NCBI GenBank assembly: GCA_030647325.1
Contig: JAUSJN010000061.1
Location: 1 to 45,131 of the forward strand
Direction: 5' to 3'
Length of the DNA stretch: 45,131 nucleotides
Source: Nanobdellota archaeon
Lineage (GTDB): Archaea; Nanobdellota; Nanobdellia; Woesearchaeales; GW2011-AR9
Shown here: piece after piece, positions 8,633 through 44,403 of the stretch
How positions within the stretch are numbered: position 1 is the first letter of the stretch
Layout: every line of letters starts with the position of its first letter
Notes under the pieces: model-generated
The model's database searches: none
Seen by the model: the letters and a program-made list of their open reading frames with translations, nothing else
What the model was told of the DNA's origin: nothing
Translations under genes and position numbers: made by a program

Positions 8633-8768
8633 CGCCCTGGCCGGGATTTTCGTTGATTGTGAATTCATCTCCAACCATTTTTGAACCCGGGTCGAAGCCT
8701 TGCTGCGCAGATTTCCAGTCGAATTCTGACCGACAGGGCTTCATGCTAGGCCACTACACCACCAGGGC
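8633..8768 (-). tRNA. tRNA-Asp(GUC) with two introns: anticodon loop (8701-8730, 30 nt) and T-loop (8647-8679, 33 nt)
   Basis: rc: GCCCTGG...AAGCC-CTGTCG[30]A-GGCTT...CCCGGG-TTCAAA[33]T-CCCGG-CCAGGGC; removal gives a 73-nt cloverleaf. Confidence 0.9.
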
Positions 8769-13748: not shown

Positions 13749-14981
13749 TTAGCTCCTCATCTCTTCCAAAATCTCTTGCATCAGCTCTTTCTTAATTACG
13801 CTCTTTATATCCAATAACTGCTGCTCTTTCTTTCTATCTTGTGATTTTAGATCTTCAACAGCTGTTGCACTTAAAGGATGCGTACAATTCTGGCAGTAAT
13901 CGCTCTTAGGCTCATTAGAATACTTACATACTCCGCAGATAGCGTTCTTCTCTTGTTCAACTTCTTCTGTCTTTAGACCGTGAATCTTCTCTATGGCCTG
14001 ACGTTGGTCTTCATCGCTGAGCCGCCCGTAGACCTCGGAGTAGGTTCTAGTTGTAGCATGGCCAAACTCTTTCATAGCTATAGAATCCGCCAATCCTGCG
14101 GTTTTGGACATCACAATAGCTGAATGGCGCAGGTTGTAGAAGTCTAGTGGTTTTTCCATACCTGCTTTCTTTCCAATATCCCAAACCCGCAACTGAAGAG
14201 CCCGGTAGCCATATTCTTCATAGGCAACTATCCTTTGCTTATTTTTCCAATCATTACGCATTTTTATCCATAATGGCGAGTTTTTCTTCTTGAGGGGATG
14301 TTCCCGCCACCATTTCTGCAAATAGGGGCTGCACCTATACAAATGCCTGATTCTTCGGCTGGACTCGGTTTTAGTGCCTCGCACAGAGAGCTTGACGATT
14401 CCATTGCCATTAAACTCAACATCGCCATAGCGCAGGTCTACAAATTCAGAAGGACGCAATCCTGCCTCTGCTTGAGTAGCTATGATGGCCTGCATTTGAA
14501 TATCTGAAGTGGCCGCAACCATCTTCTTAACATCTTCCCAGCTAACCATATCAGCAGGCGTTAAGTCTCTCTTGGCTCTTTTACCATTTTTAATATCAGC
14601 GAACCCCTTAGGCTTCTCTCCTGCGTTTAACCAGCGAATAAAGGCATTAGAAACGTTGATTACGGTTTGGTAGGTTGCTAGAGACATGTTCTTACCGCCG
14701 CGCACTGGGGAAGTCTTAATCCCTGCAAAATAAGAGTTTATCTTTTCCTTCTGGTGCATGTCGGCAACAATATCTGGGGTAAGTCTTAGTACATAGGCGA
14801 TATGCTTCAAGAAAATAGCCTTACGGGAAGGTTTTATCCCTTCAACATCATATTTGTCTAAGAATTTCTTCACATACTCTTTGTTTTGGTCAGAAATAGA
14901 CTGGTCTGAGAAAAACCTCTCTCGTGCAGTCTCAAAGACTTTCTCATAATTGGTTATTGGCAAGTATAAACACCCATGCAT
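13749..14981 (-). CDS. Tyrosine recombinase/integrase of element 1 with C-terminal zinc ribbon
   Basis: AGLRPSEFVDLRYGD, RGTKTESSRR, YNLRHSAIV, FGHATTRTYSEVYGRL; C-terminal CGVC...CQNC; next to the tRNA-Tyr attachment site. Confidence 0.9.
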   Translation of the reverse strand: MHGCLYLPITNYEKVFETARERFFSDQSISDQNKEYVKKFLDKYDVEGIKPSRKAIFLKHIAYVLRLTPDIVADMHQKEKINSYFAGIKTSPVRGGKNMSLATYQTVINVSNAFIRWLNAGEKPKGFADIKNGKRAKRDLTPADMVSWEDVKKMVAATSDIQMQAIIATQAEAGLRPSEFVDLRYGDVEFNGNGIVKLSVRGTKTESSRRIRHLYRCSPYLQKWWREHPLKKKNSPLWIKMRNDWKNKQRIVAYEEYGYRALQLRVWDIGKKAGMEKPLDFYNLRHSAIVMSKTAGLADSIAMKEFGHATTRTYSEVYGRLSDEDQRQAIEKIHGLKTEEVEQEKNAICGVCKYSNEPKSDYCQNCTHPLSATAVEDLKSQDRKKEQQLLDIKSVIKKELMQEILEEMRS

Positions 14982-15034: not shown

Positions 15035-15049
15035 AAAGTCCCCCCTCCC
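15035..15049. repeat. Attachment repeat of element 1 containing the tRNA-Tyr 3' end
   Basis: AAAGTCCCCCCTCCC identical to 8934-8948. Confidence 0.85.
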
Positions 15050-15260
15050 GGACTTTCACCAGTTATCACGATTAGTTTTAGGTGACTAAGCGAATGCAAT
15101 GAGCGCAGTCGCCCCGCCTCCCAAGTGGCGTGACACTTGATTTGAACCGGGGATCCCTCGGTGACTACACGACTGATTGTTTTTCATCCAGTTACGTCGC
15201 TAAGACGGTATGTCAAACAACTGCTACAGCCGAGTGTTCTAGCCGCTAAACTAAGGGGGG
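15039..15260 (-). tRNA. tRNA-Tyr(GUA) with two introns: anticodon loop (61 nt) and an 88-nt T-loop intron (15053-15140)
   Basis: rc: acceptor CCCCCCT/AGGGGGG (C1:G72, as in archaeal tRNA-Tyr), anticodon stem CTCGG/CCGAG with CTGTAG^A, T-arm CCCGG-TTCAAA[88]T-CCGGG; spliced length 73 nt. Confidence 0.9.
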
Positions 15261-16224: not shown

Positions 16225-16383
16225 GCGGTAGTAGTATAGTGGTTAGTATTCGGCCTTGCCAGAGATTCCCGAGAAACCAAATGTTTCTGGGCACCGAAAA
16301 TCAAAGATTTTCGAGTGTTTGCAAAAAATCTCGTAAAAGTCTGTAATGAGGCTGTGACCGGGGTTCGACTCCCCGCTACCGCA
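16225..16383 (+). tRNA. tRNA-Gly(GCC) with an 87-nt anticodon-loop intron (16262-16348)
   Basis: Acceptor GCGGTAG/CTACCGC, anticodon stem CGGCC/GGCTG, loop TTGCCA^A, T-arm CGGGGTTCGACTCCCCG; spliced length 72 nt. Confidence 0.92.
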
Positions 16384-18123: not shown

Positions 18124-18395
18124 TGGCCCTACCGGGACTTTCACAGTTATCACGATTAGTTTAAGTGACTAAGCGAATGCAATGCAAGAAATGTGGAAAA
18201 TTACCACATTTCTGCACAGAAAACTGATCGTTGTCAGTTTTCTTGTGAGCGCAGTCGCTCCGCCTCTCAAGTGGCGTGACACTTGATTTGAACCCAGGAC
18301 CTCTGGCTTTCCAAGCAGGATTAATGGTATAGTTACGTTGAACCATTAACGGTCATATAAGACCAGCGCTCTAAACCAGGCTGAGCTATAGGGCC
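18124..18395 (-). tRNA. tRNA-Ile(UAU) with two introns: anticodon loop (47 nt) and a 149-nt T-loop intron (18138-18286)
   Basis: rc: acceptor GGCCCTA/TAGGGCC, anticodon stem CTGGT/GCCAG with CTTATA^A, T-arm CTGGG-TTCAAA[149]T-CCCGG. Confidence 0.87.
18185..18247 (-). repeat. 63-nt paired-hairpin module inserted within the tRNA-Ile T-loop intron
   Basis: Absent from the homologous tRNA-Tyr intron; similar modules at 29866-29923 and 29932-29993. Confidence 0.75.
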
Positions 18396-21918: not shown

Positions 21919-22021
21919 GCCCTGGTGGTGTAGATAATAGATCTATGATTTATTAGCACTTTCCGGACTATCATACTGCCCTTTCGAGGCGGTGACCCGG
22001 GTTCGAATCCCGGCCAGGGCA
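21919..22021 (+). tRNA. tRNA-Glu(UUC) with a 28-nt D-loop intron (about 21934-21961)
   Basis: GCCCTGG/CCAGGGC, anticodon stem CTGCC/GGCGG with CTTTCGA, T-arm CCGGGTTCGAATCCCGG; removal of 28 nt from the D-loop gives a 75-nt archaeal tRNA-Glu. Confidence 0.88.
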
Positions 22022-22024
22022 CTT

Positions 22025-31626: not shown

Positions 31627-31790
31627 ACGCCTCAATCTGTAAAAATTGCAATAAGCCAATTAATCAATATCTGCGTTCAGATGCCGTTTTCTGCTCCTTT
31701 GATTGCCAGCAAGGGCATTACTATGAAACTGTTGTAAAAGCTAGAAAAAGTAAGAAGCAGTCGTTGAATTCTGGTGGTGAGGCTGTGTGA
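31623..31790 (+). CDS. Small zinc-finger protein (GTG start)
   Basis: CKNCNK...FCSFDCQQ; GTGA overlaps upstream and downstream. Confidence 0.5.
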   Translation: MNASICKNCNKPINQYLRSDAVFCSFDCQQGHYYETVVKARKSKKQSLNSGGEAV

Positions 31791-33460
31791 AAGAATCTCA
31801 CGAGGGGTTTTTTAATTACACTCGCAACGAAGTGAAAAATTGTTTGATAGCTCAACCGCAAAAAATCAGTCAAGCAACAGAATTATTGCGCAATTATATT
31901 CTAACATATAACAAAATTTACACAATACGTTCTGATGAAAAAACAGAAATTTGGATTTATGATAATGGTATTTACATTCCACAGGGGCAATCACATATCA
32001 GACAAACCTGTAGGAAAATTTTAGATAAGGCATATTCAAATGCAATTGCAAATCGTGTAATTGCAAAAATAGCAGTAGATACATACATAGACCAAAATGA
32101 TTTTTTTAAAAATGAACCTCCTCATTTGATTCCTGTACAAAATGGAATTTTTGATTTTAAGAAAAAAGAATTATTGCCTTTTTCATCTGAATATTATTTT
32201 TTTAATAAATTACCTATTATTTATGATAAATCGAAAGATTGTCCTAACATTAAAAAGTTTTTCAATGAGATTTTATCTTCAGAAGAAGATTTGGAAGTAG
32301 TCCAAGAACTGTTTGGATATGTTATTTATCGTGAATACAAAATTGAAAAAGCAATAATGTTCTTGGGTTCTGGAAGGAATGGAAAAGGAAAATTATGCGA
32401 TTTATTGAAACGTTTTGTGGGCGCAGAAAACTGTGCAAATATCCCTTTGCAGAATTTTGAAAATGATAACTTTGCCATGTCAGAATTGCATAACAAACTT
32501 GTGAATTTGTCAGCAGACATTTCAAAAACAGCTTTAACGCAAACTGGCAATTTTAAATCATTAACTGGTCGTGATTTGATTTCAGCATCGAGAAAATTTT
32601 TATCAAAAATTCATTTTGTGAACTATGCAAAAATGATTTTCTCAGCAAATGAACTGCCGATAACCAATGATATCACACCAGCATTCTTTTTGCGGTGGGT
32701 GATATTAAATTTCTCATTTCAATTCGTAACAAAAAAAGATTTCACTGGTGATGATATAACAAAATTAGCTGATCCAGAACGTATCGAAAAAATCATCAGC
32801 AATGATGAGATGTCTGGATTGTTTAATTTTGCCGTTAATGGTCTTGAACGGTTATTGCAAAAAGGAGATTTTTCATATTCAAAATCAACCAGTGAAGTAA
32901 AAAAGATATGGCTAAGAAAAAGCAGTAGCATTCAGGCATTTATTATGGATTGCGTTGAAAAAAAGCATGATGCGATTACAACAAAAAGCGAATTTCGTCA
33001 ATCATACAATGAATATTGTAACAAGCATAAGATTACTCCTATTTCCGATAAACTAATCCGTGAAACGCTGGCAACATCATGCGGGATTACCGATGGGCGG
33101 AAAACAGTAGGAGAAGAACAAGTGGTACGTTGCTGGATTGGAATTCTTTTGAAAAATGAAGAAAAAAATGACAGGATTGTCAGCTTTGACATGGTTTCTC
33201 ATCCTATGGGAGAAAAAGGGGGAAATAAAATAGATACTAAAAACCTTAGCAACCTGTCAAACGTGTCAGGAAAAAAATCAATTGTCAGCACTGACAAGGT
33301 TTTTGAAAAAATTACGCTTAAAAATTGCGAAGAAACATATCACAAATGTCAGGACTGCGGAAAATTTCCATGCCATTGGCAAGCACCTGATGGTTCGTAT
33401 CGTTGCAATGATTGTTCAACCGATACGGCAACCTTCGTCTCTGAAGAGGTGGTTGAATAA
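31787..33460 (+). CDS. D5/P4-like SF3 helicase (phage/plasmid replication protein) with C-terminal zinc finger
   Basis: AIMFLGSGRNGKGKLCDLLKRFVG Walker A, NLSADIS, KMIFSANELPITNDITPAFFLRWVIL; C-terminal CQDCGKFPC...CNDC. Confidence 0.88.
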   Translation: MKESHEGFFNYTRNEVKNCLIAQPQKISQATELLRNYILTYNKIYTIRSDEKTEIWIYDNGIYIPQGQSHIRQTCRKILDKAYSNAIANRVIAKIAVDTYIDQNDFFKNEPPHLIPVQNGIFDFKKKELLPFSSEYYFFNKLPIIYDKSKDCPNIKKFFNEILSSEEDLEVVQELFGYVIYREYKIEKAIMFLGSGRNGKGKLCDLLKRFVGAENCANIPLQNFENDNFAMSELHNKLVNLSADISKTALTQTGNFKSLTGRDLISASRKFLSKIHFVNYAKMIFSANELPITNDITPAFFLRWVILNFSFQFVTKKDFTGDDITKLADPERIEKIISNDEMSGLFNFAVNGLERLLQKGDFSYSKSTSEVKKIWLRKSSSIQAFIMDCVEKKHDAITTKSEFRQSYNEYCNKHKITPISDKLIRETLATSCGITDGRKTVGEEQVVRCWIGILLKNEEKNDRIVSFDMVSHPMGEKGGNKIDTKNLSNLSNVSGKKSIVSTDKVFEKITLKNCEETYHKCQDCGKFPCHWQAPDGSYRCNDCSTDTATFVSEEVVE

Positions 33461-40322: not shown

Positions 40323-41765
40323 TCAATCTGTGCCTACGTTAATATATTTTGTCAGAGAGACATTTTCCTCTTCTGATTTCTGCAATTTCCTGCTCCTAAT
40401 AGCCTCTCGTCTTAATCTGGCTCTGTACTCGTAAGAACATTTAGGACACCATGTACCACCTTTTATAGCATCTGCTTTAGCTTCCCAAATATGATCATTT
40501 GCACATTGAAATTTAAGCTTAACACTATTTTTGATATATTCCATAGATAAGCATTTTCCTCCTTTACTCTCTGCCAATGCTCGAAGGTTATCTAACTCAA
40601 TTTCTTTGTAAGTGCCAGCTTTTCCAAATTGATTGCTCCATAATTCTTTTTGTTTTTTATCTGAACAAACTGGACACCATGTTCCTTTCTTTATATTACT
40701 AGGAACTGTCCGCCATTTATGGTCTTCAGCACATTCCCATACTAATTTAGTAGAATTATTAATATAATTTTTAGATAAACATTTTCCGCCTCTGCTTTTT
40801 GCAATTTCTTGCATTTCTTCTAAATTTTTAGATGAGTAAACATCAAAAGTTTTATAATCTATTTTCTCAGCATTTACCAAAGGTTTAAAGCCTTCTTTTT
40901 TACATTCTTTTTCAATCCATTCTCCTAATAGTCCATAATTTGTAGGATATGGAACTTGGATTAATATAACACCATTTTCTGAGCATCTCTTTTTTTTCAA
41001 TTCATCATGTTGCTGAATCTTTTCTAAACTAAAGTTTCTGTTGAAATAATGAATAGGCTGAAAATGTTGTTCTCCTTGATATTCAAATGCTAAATTTAAT
41101 TTTTTACAATATCCATCCAATTCAAGATTTTTACCCTTAGAACCTTTCATCCAGATAGGATAACTTTTTGGAAATTTTTCTTTGAAGAAAGTTTCAAAGA
41201 AACTTCTACATATCTTTTCACCAATTCTTGTAGAACAAATTGGACACCACTTATTTTTTTTAATGTTATGAGGGGTCGCTTCCCATTCGTGCTCTTTTTT
41301 ACATTTCCATTTTAAATTAGTTGATGAGCTAATATATTCATCTGATAAGCATTCCCCACCTCTGCTTTTTGCAATTTCTTTCATACCTGCTATGGTTAAG
41401 CGGCACATTTTCTGTCTTTTTTCTTTGGAATATGATATTCCCTTATTCGAAGGGATATGTCCTTTCGGAAAACCCATTTTCTTTCTAATTTCTGGATGAG
41501 CAAATAAAGTTTTTTTCCTAGATTCTACGGCTTTTCTTATGGACTCTTTAGATTGCTTGGTTCCTAACAGGGGGTGTTTGTTTAGCTTATAGTATTCCTT
41601 CATAAATTCGGAATGTTTCTTTTTGTTTTTTTCAGAAACTGGTATTCCTTTATTCCACGTAGTTTTTCCTTTATGAGCTTCACTTAGATTTCTTCTGTGT
41701 TCATCACTTAATTTTTTATCTTTATTCCAAGGAATTCGTTCTTTCTTTAATCTTACGTCAGCCAT
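40323..41765 (-). CDS. Homing-endonuclease-like protein: NUMOD3 repeats, treble-clef zinc-finger repeats and PD-(D/E)xK-like nuclease core
   Basis: WNKGIPVSEKNKKKHSE-type NUMOD3 motifs; three 'AKSRGGKCLS..YI..S.KL.W.C..HEW.A...IK.GTWCP.CS' repeats; LELDGYCKKLNLAFEYQGEQHF. Confidence 0.78.
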   Translation of the reverse strand: MADVRLKKERIPWNKDKKLSDEHRRNLSEAHKGKTTWNKGIPVSEKNKKKHSEFMKEYYKLNKHPLLGTKQSKESIRKAVESRKKTLFAHPEIRKKMGFPKGHIPSNKGISYSKEKRQKMCRLTIAGMKEIAKSRGGECLSDEYISSSTNLKWKCKKEHEWEATPHNIKKNKWCPICSTRIGEKICRSFFETFFKEKFPKSYPIWMKGSKGKNLELDGYCKKLNLAFEYQGEQHFQPIHYFNRNFSLEKIQQHDELKKKRCSENGVILIQVPYPTNYGLLGEWIEKECKKEGFKPLVNAEKIDYKTFDVYSSKNLEEMQEIAKSRGGKCLSKNYINNSTKLVWECAEDHKWRTVPSNIKKGTWCPVCSDKKQKELWSNQFGKAGTYKEIELDNLRALAESKGGKCLSMEYIKNSVKLKFQCANDHIWEAKADAIKGGTWCPKCSYEYRARLRREAIRSRKLQKSEEENVSLTKYINVGTD

Positions 41766-43080: not shown

Positions 43081-44403
43081 CTAACTTGATTTACTCCTCA
43101 TCTCCTTAAACTCACTCAGCAACTTTGGATTCTTCGCAATCTCAGAAATGTACTTCAATGTTTCGATAAACTGCTGTTGCTGTTCTGGGTTAGTATAGCT
43201 TGGAATTAAACTCATCAGCTCATCCTTTTGTTTCAGTAGCTCTTCTGCATCCAATTTCTCCTGTTCATATACTTTGGTACTAGTGGGTCTACCGCAGAAT
43301 GGACAATGGTTGTACGAAGAACTGATAAACCGTTGGCAGATACATTTGATCTGTTTCGGTTTCTCCTCTTCCTCAAACTTAATTCCCTTTTCTTTTAACC
43401 AAGCTTCTCGTACTTGCTTATCAGAGATATGCGTATAATTACGTTGCATCTTACTTCCGATGATCCATCCCATACGCTTACATCGTATATCAACAGGAAG
43501 CGTGGAACTTGAATCTAAGGAAGCTCTAGAGTGCCTAAACCAGTGCGGATTATGTTTCTTCGTAATCTCTGCTCTTTCAGCAATTTTCTGGAATAGCTGG
43601 TAAAGCCTCTGATGAGTAAAATGTTCTATTCTTGTCTTTCTACCCTTAACTTTCTTAACATAATAAAATAACGGAAAGTCCTTATTATTTTTACAAGGGT
43701 GGGTAGCACGATGTTCTAACATGAGTGGAACGCTGTCAACTATATCAATAACTCTTTGTTCAGTCTTACTTGTTGGAAGAAAAACCTCTCCAATCCCCCT
43801 ATCATTGACCTTGAAGTGTTTAATTTGGATGGTTGCCACTTCTCCAAAACGTGCACCAATTTCATGGAACAATGCCAAAAGAGCCTTCTCTTGGGTAGTT
43901 TCGCATCCCTTTTCCAGCATGCATTGTAAATCTTCTTCTGTAATGACCTGCTCAGGGTCTATTTTATCTTTCTTATAGTAAAGAGATACGTCTTTCCTAA
44001 GAAACTTATAGATTTTCTTCGTAGTCTCCCTAACTAAGAAATCATTACTTAACAGTCTTTCATCATGATCTTCCAGCCAACTGTAAAACTGCTTCAAAGA
44101 CCTTCTATAATCAGATTTCGTAGCATTGGACTTGTTTGTATTTTGGAGTTGGACAATAACGCCTTGTAGATCAGAAATGGTAGCTTTATCAAAGTCCTTC
44201 TGAAGCCATTCCAGCATGGTTAGAATCTGCCCCCATCTCTTACCTACAGTATATTTTCCAGTAGTGCCTTTAGAAATAAGTGAATTGCCGAACTCCTTTA
44301 GCAGTTCCTTATTTCGTGGGCTAATTTTGTCGCTTTCTTGAATAGTTTTCAGGCACTTGTAATAGTTTGTCTCCCTGTTTGGATATAGTTGTCGTAGTTC
44401 CAT
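43081..44403 (-). CDS. Tyrosine recombinase/integrase of element 2 with C-terminal zinc ribbon
   Basis: EIGARFGEVATIQIKHF, LPTSKTEQR, HWFRHSRAS, MQRNYTHIS; CICQ...CPFC; next to the tRNA-Ser(UGA) attachment site. Confidence 0.9.
   Translation of the reverse strand: MELRQLYPNRETNYYKCLKTIQESDKISPRNKELLKEFGNSLISKGTTGKYTVGKRWGQILTMLEWLQKDFDKATISDLQGVIVQLQNTNKSNATKSDYRRSLKQFYSWLEDHDERLLSNDFLVRETTKKIYKFLRKDVSLYYKKDKIDPEQVITEEDLQCMLEKGCETTQEKALLALFHEIGARFGEVATIQIKHFKVNDRGIGEVFLPTSKTEQRVIDIVDSVPLMLEHRATHPCKNNKDFPLFYYVKKVKGRKTRIEHFTHQRLYQLFQKIAERAEITKKHNPHWFRHSRASLDSSSTLPVDIRCKRMGWIIGSKMQRNYTHISDKQVREAWLKEKGIKFEEEEKPKQIKCICQRFISSSYNHCPFCGRPTSTKVYEQEKLDAEELLKQKDELMSLIPSYTNPEQQQQFIETLKYISEIAKNPKLLSEFKEMRSKSS

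Follow-up and report, generated by a model that had tools for sequence, protein, structure and literature searches.

The tRNA-Tyr and tRNA-Ile genes in the 45,131 bp contig JAUSJN010000061.1 of a Nanobdellota archaeon (assembly GCA_030647325.1; the whole contig is referred to here as the window) are each interrupted in the T-loop by an intron. The two introns are probably copies of a single bulge-helix-bulge (BHB) intron that has been copied between tRNA genes, and its core is a non-autonomous mobile element, designated E, that is also found outside introns. The genome of the window (G000) was compared with two genomes of the same genus (G001 and G002), and 49 genomes of the same family were searched.

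The pre-tRNA-Ile(UAU) gene (positions 18124-18395) was located by a search for acceptor and T-stem pairing. The pre-tRNA-Tyr(GUA) gene (15039-15260) was located by a pairing pattern search, and is the sole match to the Tyr pattern in the genome. Both genes, and all parts of them given below, are on the minus strand. ARAGORN returned no hits on the unspliced genes, and recognised tRNA-Tyr(gta) and tRNA-Ile(tat) once both introns of each had been deleted in silico. Each gene holds a canonical anticodon-loop intron at 37/38 (61 nt, 15163-15223, in Tyr and 47 nt, 18309-18355, in Ile; in silico splicing, exact ends inferred) besides its T-loop intron at 59/60, which is 88 nt long in Tyr (15053-15140) and 149 nt in Ile (18138-18286). 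These coordinates of the Ile intron, and its insertion at the same site as that of Tyr, had been given in an initial annotation made from the sequence and were found to be exact, as were the shared TTCA/TGAA BHB and AAT/AGT bulges described there, which are present at both junctions. The junctions both read TTCA-AA^T ... TGAA-AG^T, with the cut at 59/60, and the 4-bp TTCA:TGAA helix is flanked by the 3-nt bulges AAT and AGT. The inner helix beside the bulge is short, consisting of 2 bp and an internal loop. A splicing endonuclease EndA (PF01974) is encoded in the genome (G000:C46:9589-9849, E-value 1.3e-30) and would be expected to cut the predicted BHB. A group I intron was rejected, as no Rfam match besides tRNA was obtained up to an E-value of 1 and A, not U, precedes the intron. 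When the window and eight E-bearing loci were scanned against Rfam, nothing other than tRNA reached a gathering score.

As judged by their junctions and alignment, the two T-loop introns were confirmed as predicted archaeal BHB tRNA introns with a near-identical core. Their homology, proposed in the initial annotation, is borne out by 97% identical columns in the core, with a 61-nt insert in the Ile copy excluded, and by a shared 17-mer, AAGTGTCACGCCACTTG, which occurs twice in the window (0.02 expected) and twice in the whole 958-kb genome. Chance likeness, or a tandem duplication of the Tyr and Ile genes, can be given almost no weight. The two genes are indeed neighbours, 3 kb apart in the window, but they are unlike in their exons and 37/38 introns, a 17-mer shared by chance would be very improbable, and other genomes have E in Val, Gly, Ser and Arg genes.

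Element E, the common intron core, is 50-60 nt long and is the 5' part of the intron, with the sequence CAnnTGTCACGYCAnnTG...GCGACnnGCGCTTCGCTTAGTCAC. With a covariance model of the core only (R2), the 59-nt copy in the Tyr intron (15081-15139) scores 69.4 bits, and the copy in the Ile intron (18164-18285), made up of hairpin A, pseudoknot and hairpin B and split by the insert, scores 63.6 bits. The order of the fold is hairpin A (CAnnTG/CAnnTG), a pseudoknot between loop A and the linker, and hairpin B, with compensatory changes in all three. In hairpins A and B, 92.6% of cells are paired, and the covariation score is 0.255 vs 0.108 in shuffled data (0/500). The pseudoknot is of the H-type, with loop A pairing with the linker 3' of hairpin A, and its compensatory pairs include CGC/GCG, CGT/ACG, AACC/GGTT, AATC/GATT, GCAC/GTGC, TCTC/GAGA, TTTCGC/GCGARA and CAAA/TTTG. 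When the linkers were permuted among sequences, 0 of 5000 permutations matched the observed pairing, and the result was the same with one sequence per loop type. The pseudoknot is kept in intron and non-intron copies alike. As judged from these sequence changes, E is conserved as a folded single strand. An earlier version of hairpin B taken from the minimum free energy fold (GGGCGA/TCGCTT, TTGGG/CCTAA) was superseded, on covariation, by GCGACT/AGTCAC. In alignments, the ends of E are not inverted repeats of each other.

Within introns, the 5' part of E has a second pairing partner. All 15 parsed E-type T-loop introns have the 4-bp TTCR:YGAA helix, an A-initial bulge, the 59/60 site and a helix between a 5' arm and a 3' arm. 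In these 15, the first 14 nt (5' arm and loop A) are complementary to the 3' arm preceding YGAA, and E begins 0-2 nt past the 5' splice site. The 3' arms in the window were identified by a duplex test as CTAATCGTGATAACTGG + TGAAAG in Tyr (15053-15075) and CTAATCGTGATAACTG + TGAAAG in Ile (18138-18159). In the latter, base pairing joins CTAATCGTGATAACTG to loop A and the 5' arm of E, and TGAAAG to exon TTCA. Compensatory changes between the arms include TGTCACG/CGTGACA, TTCTTTCG/CGAGAGAA and AACCGCAAA/TTTGCGGTT, and each duplex taken singly outscores at least 94% of shuffles. Because the arm helix uses nucleotides of hairpin A and the pseudoknot, the intron RNA can adopt either fold and may switch between them. 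E is also present at 37/38 of tRNA-Ser(CGA) in G008, G016 and G011, which represent three genera; by eye, the arm pairing there is clear in G011 (GTAACG/CGTTAC) and weaker in G008. The 3' end of the intron, GGTGAAAG, may be a duplicate of GGTTCAAA that has mutated, but part of their likeness is imposed by the BHB by itself.

A covariance model of the Tyr and Ile introns (R1), the check proposed in the initial annotation, matched T-loop introns of relatives in Val (G001), Ile and Gly (G002), Ser (G010), Ile (G013 and G016) and Arg (G008), and thus extended the intron to further tRNA species at 59/60. When these hits were read, the core was recognised in other places as well, which were then searched with the core-only model R2. 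At an E-value of 1 or below, R2 detected E in 23 of the 49 family genomes, with nine matches in G000, and at 0.001 or below 9/288 genomes of the order were positive, seven of them in the same family. Hosts at 59/60 include Tyr, Ile, Val, Gly, Ser, Arg and other tRNAs, and outside introns E adjoins tRNA, 5S rRNA and metK genes. An exact-pattern scan of 85,462 genomes returned mostly 'Candidatus Woesearchaeota', together with other archaeal bins and two single bacterial hits. Thermoproteales were absent from these exact-pattern matches; the R2 covariance search covered the archaeal order of the window only. One exact pattern tried on IMG/VR contigs gave 0 matches, and a viral origin of E is unsupported.

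Recent movement is seen within the genus. The T-loop of tRNA-Tyr is uninterrupted in G001; in G002 it holds a 27-nt intron of unrelated sequence, and in G000 the E intron. Across the family it is empty, minimal or occupied by various introns. The Val gene carries E in G001 but another intron in G000, and the Gly gene carries E in G002 but an intron of another family, family 2, in G000. The E sequences of Tyr, Ile and Val within the genus are identical or about 90% alike: G000-Tyr is identical to G002-Ile, and G000-Ile, with its insert removed, to G001-Val. Hence, the alleles do not follow tRNA identity. For 9/44 copies of E the nearest neighbour is in the same genome, vs 2.1 expected. In G001-Val, exon TTCG lies opposite intron TGAA via a G.U pair, as would be expected of a whole intron moved from a tRNA with TTCA. 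The discordant alleles and the presence/absence difference in Tyr show that E introns were copied among tRNA species of the genus. The initial annotation was therefore right about homology and recent spread, but it missed the core outside tRNA introns and at 37/38. Of the routes it named, plain recombination or gene conversion via the T-loop is improbable, because the tRNA species have no more than ~8+3 nt of the T-loop in common and the T-stems differ. Retro-homing is a possible route, for which no reverse transcriptase was found in G000.

For copies of E outside introns, direct repeats anchored at the start of E were compared with those at ~95-138 random placements in the same locus. In 16 of 27 such copies, the sequence ending exactly at the E start recurs past E, with no equal at the random placements. 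These target repeats are about 16-60 bp long. Around intron copies of E, target duplication was found in 0/14. The targets include tRNA 5' ends up to the D-loop (G000:C34, G001:C14, G010, G044, G050 and G059), 5S rRNA (G050, G063, G044, G011 and G043), the 3' end of metK (G007; gene identified by eye from sequence) and intergenic DNA, and the host gene is intact on one side of the insertion. Not all of these loci are independent, as sister species share a single locus in the case of G000:C34 and G001:C14. The T-loop, the anticodon loop, the D-loop after GG and 5S helix IV are suggestive of a general preference of E for the apical loops of hairpins; the metK target has no obvious fit to it.

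The form of these copies bears on an alternative in which it is the intron that moves, as in Thermoproteales, whole from tRNA to tRNA, for example by reverse splicing or BHB-guided DNA copying, with the non-intron copies of E as debris. Whole introns, including TGAAAG, do seem to have moved (the Val G.U pair), E starts within 2 nt of the 5' splice site, and the T-loop introns of family 2 number up to 15-16 matches in a genome, 15 of their loci having been parsed as such introns. However, the non-intron copies start and stop at the hairpins, mostly without the 3' arm, and they keep the pseudoknot with independent compensatory changes and have long duplications of their own, which goes beyond debris. 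This explanation is considered unlikely. It is considerably less probable that E is an attachment site or remnant of an element with a tRNA-targeting tyrosine recombinase. Such scars would be in line with the two Phage_integrase genes of the window and with tRNA fragments beside intact tRNAs that look like attL/attR, but the targets (tRNA D-loop, 5S, metK, intergenic) are diverse and without a common core, the repeats vary between about 16 and 60 bp, and E is 50-60 nt long with a conserved fold of its own. Slightly less probable still is that E serves as a small RNA, with a guide or regulatory role, which introns harbour and for which it is retained. The conserved structure with covariation would suit such a role, but site, host gene and copy number differ among species of one genus, no Rfam family matches, and target duplications are present.

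The preferred reading, a mobile core carried by a copied intron, can be set out as a series of steps. Outside introns, the gene-less E, structured as a single strand and ~50-60 nt long, would insert with a target duplication of about 16-60 bp, and the nearby gene would survive on one side. In T-loops (59/60) and in the anticodon loop of tRNA-Ser (37/38), the 5' arm and loop A of E would pair with a 3' arm upstream of YGAA, and YGAA with exon TTCR, to give a BHB, of which the pairing is seen and the cutting by EndA expected. Insertion would be close to silent, because a BHB formed with the 5' arm of E should be cut by EndA. The E-bearing introns would then be copied into further tRNA species within the genus. 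The first E intron may have arisen when E landed directly in a tRNA loop, or in a pre-existing T-loop intron, and E may move as single-stranded RNA or DNA through an enzyme acting in trans. The genome sequences themselves document the E family and its fold, the duplications, the BHB pairing, the recent gain and the discordance of alleles. Tentatively, and with less confidence than the preferred reading, E can be proposed as an archaeal 'introner', a gene-less, pseudoknotted single-strand element that inserts with target duplications of long and variable size, whose insertion into tRNA loops itself makes spliceable introns via its 5' arm and which then disperses them. The introners of eukaryotes are mobile elements that turn into introns spliced via the spliceosome; E would likewise pass from mobile element to spliced intron, but by the tRNA BHB/EndA pathway.

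Several observations weigh against a mobile core. No clear duplication is present at 11/27 non-intron copies, some of which may be old, truncated or insert-bearing. The intron copies are without duplications, and direct intron birth by insertion of E is therefore hypothetical. A CGTGAC-like 3' arm is present on non-intron copies 3' of tRNAs (C30, C40 and G001:C60), so that this arm is not exclusive to introns. The E alleles in the genus differ at three sites only, and all data are genome assemblies, mostly metagenomic. No mobilising enzyme stands out either: neither a reverse transcriptase (RT; PF00078) nor a Y1 transposase (PF01797) was found in the G000 assembly, which misses 10% of the genome. 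Neither of them tracks E in the 49 family genomes: RT is encoded in 10/23 E-positive vs 7/26 E-negative genomes, and E is present in 10/17 RT-bearing and 9/17 Y1-bearing genomes, with about 8 expected. An RT-type enzyme may lie in the missing 10% of G000 or in a partner organism. A possible trans-acting endonuclease is the protein encoded at 40323-41765 (minus strand), which matches NUMOD3 and DUF4379, a feature of certain homing endonucleases.

Two types of known element were rejected for E. An IS200/IS605-type element, or a miniature inverted-repeat transposable element (MITE) derived from one, is disfavoured by the lack of a Y1 transposase in G000 and by the long target duplications. A classical MITE does not agree with duplications of about 16-60 bp, which are not short or fixed, or with the lack of terminal inverted repeats.

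Published work offers several points of comparison. In Thermoproteales, closely similar introns shared by different tRNAs were interpreted as the outcome of intron transposition of unknown mechanism (Fujishima et al. 2010, via PMC4090602, PMC4390854). From these accounts, both groups have near-identical introns in tRNAs of different identity that spread within a lineage, whereas the introns described here are from Woesearchaeota and their pseudoknotted core also occurs outside tRNA introns, with long target duplications. In Caldiarchaeum, tRNA-gene disruption and intron gain were attributed to a mobile element (PMC3293823). The likeness extends to intron gain and to a tRNA 5' fragment beside an intact tRNA, but that element is 1.8 kb long and has a recombinase gene, whereas E is 50-60 nt long and has no gene. 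Some Asgard archaea are reported to carry a heavy load of non-canonical introns (PMC11291895). As far as they can be compared by description, mitochondrial double-hairpin elements and sponge hairpin-forming repeats (PMC2800124) are similarly small and gene-less, and the insert in the Ile copy of E also has two hairpins; the conserved pseudoknot, the long duplications and the spliced-intron form set E apart from the mitochondrial hairpin repeats as described there. A full-text literature search, with most subscription papers outside its scope, turned up no account of introns or elements of this type from Woesearchaeota, and E has a reasonable chance of being a distinct kind of element. That archaeal tRNA introns transpose has long been inferred, with the mechanism called unknown (PMC4090602), and E offers a concrete vehicle for it. 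Given the same core in and out of tRNA genes, the duplications, the fold and the within-genus differences, the mobile unit, its target rules and the donor alleles are directly testable. Essential single-copy tRNAs in these genomes would depend on the removal of mobile sequence, and standard annotation misses such interrupted tRNAs.

The insert in the Ile copy of E is a 61-nt double-hairpin element (DH; 18185-18245, minus strand), which lies in the loop of hairpin B, is flanked by a 2-bp CA repeat, and has no counterpart in G002 Ile or G000 Tyr, whose copies of E are nearly identical in all else. DH is a second gene-less mobile element, of 53-61 nt, with the sequence CAAGAAAAC..GTTTTCTG..CAGAAAT..ATTTCTTG. 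Further copies in G000 are at C30:19479, C37:4001, C41:45765 and C54:3429. A 2-bp direct flank repeat is present at 5/5 genomic DH copies, and it is this fixed 2-bp repeat that distinguishes the nested insert from E. A DH copy on C40 holds a further nested hairpin insert.

The family-2 introns start with TGCCTGCTACACTAGGCGAACG and interrupt T-loops in G000 of Arg on C10, of two tRNAs on C30, of Gly on C47, and on C67. A covariance model of this family (R3) was positive in 25/49 genomes, with up to 16 matches per genome, and of 21 loci read, 15 were clean T-loop introns in diverse tRNAs. These introns look similar to the E introns. One family-2 copy, in antisense orientation at C34:149-205, is not part of an intron and has a 30-nt repeat, although 3 of 150 placements in this repeat-rich contig reach as high a score.

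Other arrangements of E and of hairpin elements were observed. Copies of E that end in GCTGGCTGARAGGCCAGC and a T-run are located directly 3' of tRNA genes at G000:C30:19457-19569, G000:C40:2200-2366 and G001:C60:9259-9309. In G015, E lies within a larger structured repeat on C35, C59, C60, C69 and C80 (L050, L068, L077, L078 and L076, respectively), with at least 5 copies and conserved arms such as GTTACCGTCTTCTCGCC...GACGGTAAC. At G000:C35:10588-10757 (L005) and G000:C49:3081-3308, an intact tRNA (Cys and another, respectively) is followed by a hairpin element and then by a second copy of the 3' end of that tRNA, as though long duplications also accompanied the insertion of other element families.

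The tyrosine-recombinase (Phage_integrase) genes of the window are at 13749-14981, directly downstream of tRNA-Tyr, and at 43081-44403, both on the minus strand. Together with a D5_N/DUF5906 protein encoded at 31787-33460, these genes point to the integration of a plasmid- or virus-like element in the window. ARAGORN finds 1 tRNA in the window, and manual reading at least 6. A tRNA-Asp(GUC) gene (8633-8768, minus strand), missed by ARAGORN and Rfam, has a 33-nt T-loop intron at the same 59/60 site (8647-8679, minus strand) with unrelated content and no E. A probable tRNA-Glu(UUC) gene with a D-loop insert (GTAGATAATAGATC...TATCAT) lies at 21919-22022 (plus strand), and at 16225-16383 (plus strand) there is a gene resembling tRNA-Gly(GCC), its anticodon loop interrupted by a long intron, for which an Rfam match was obtained only when a shorter stretch was searched.
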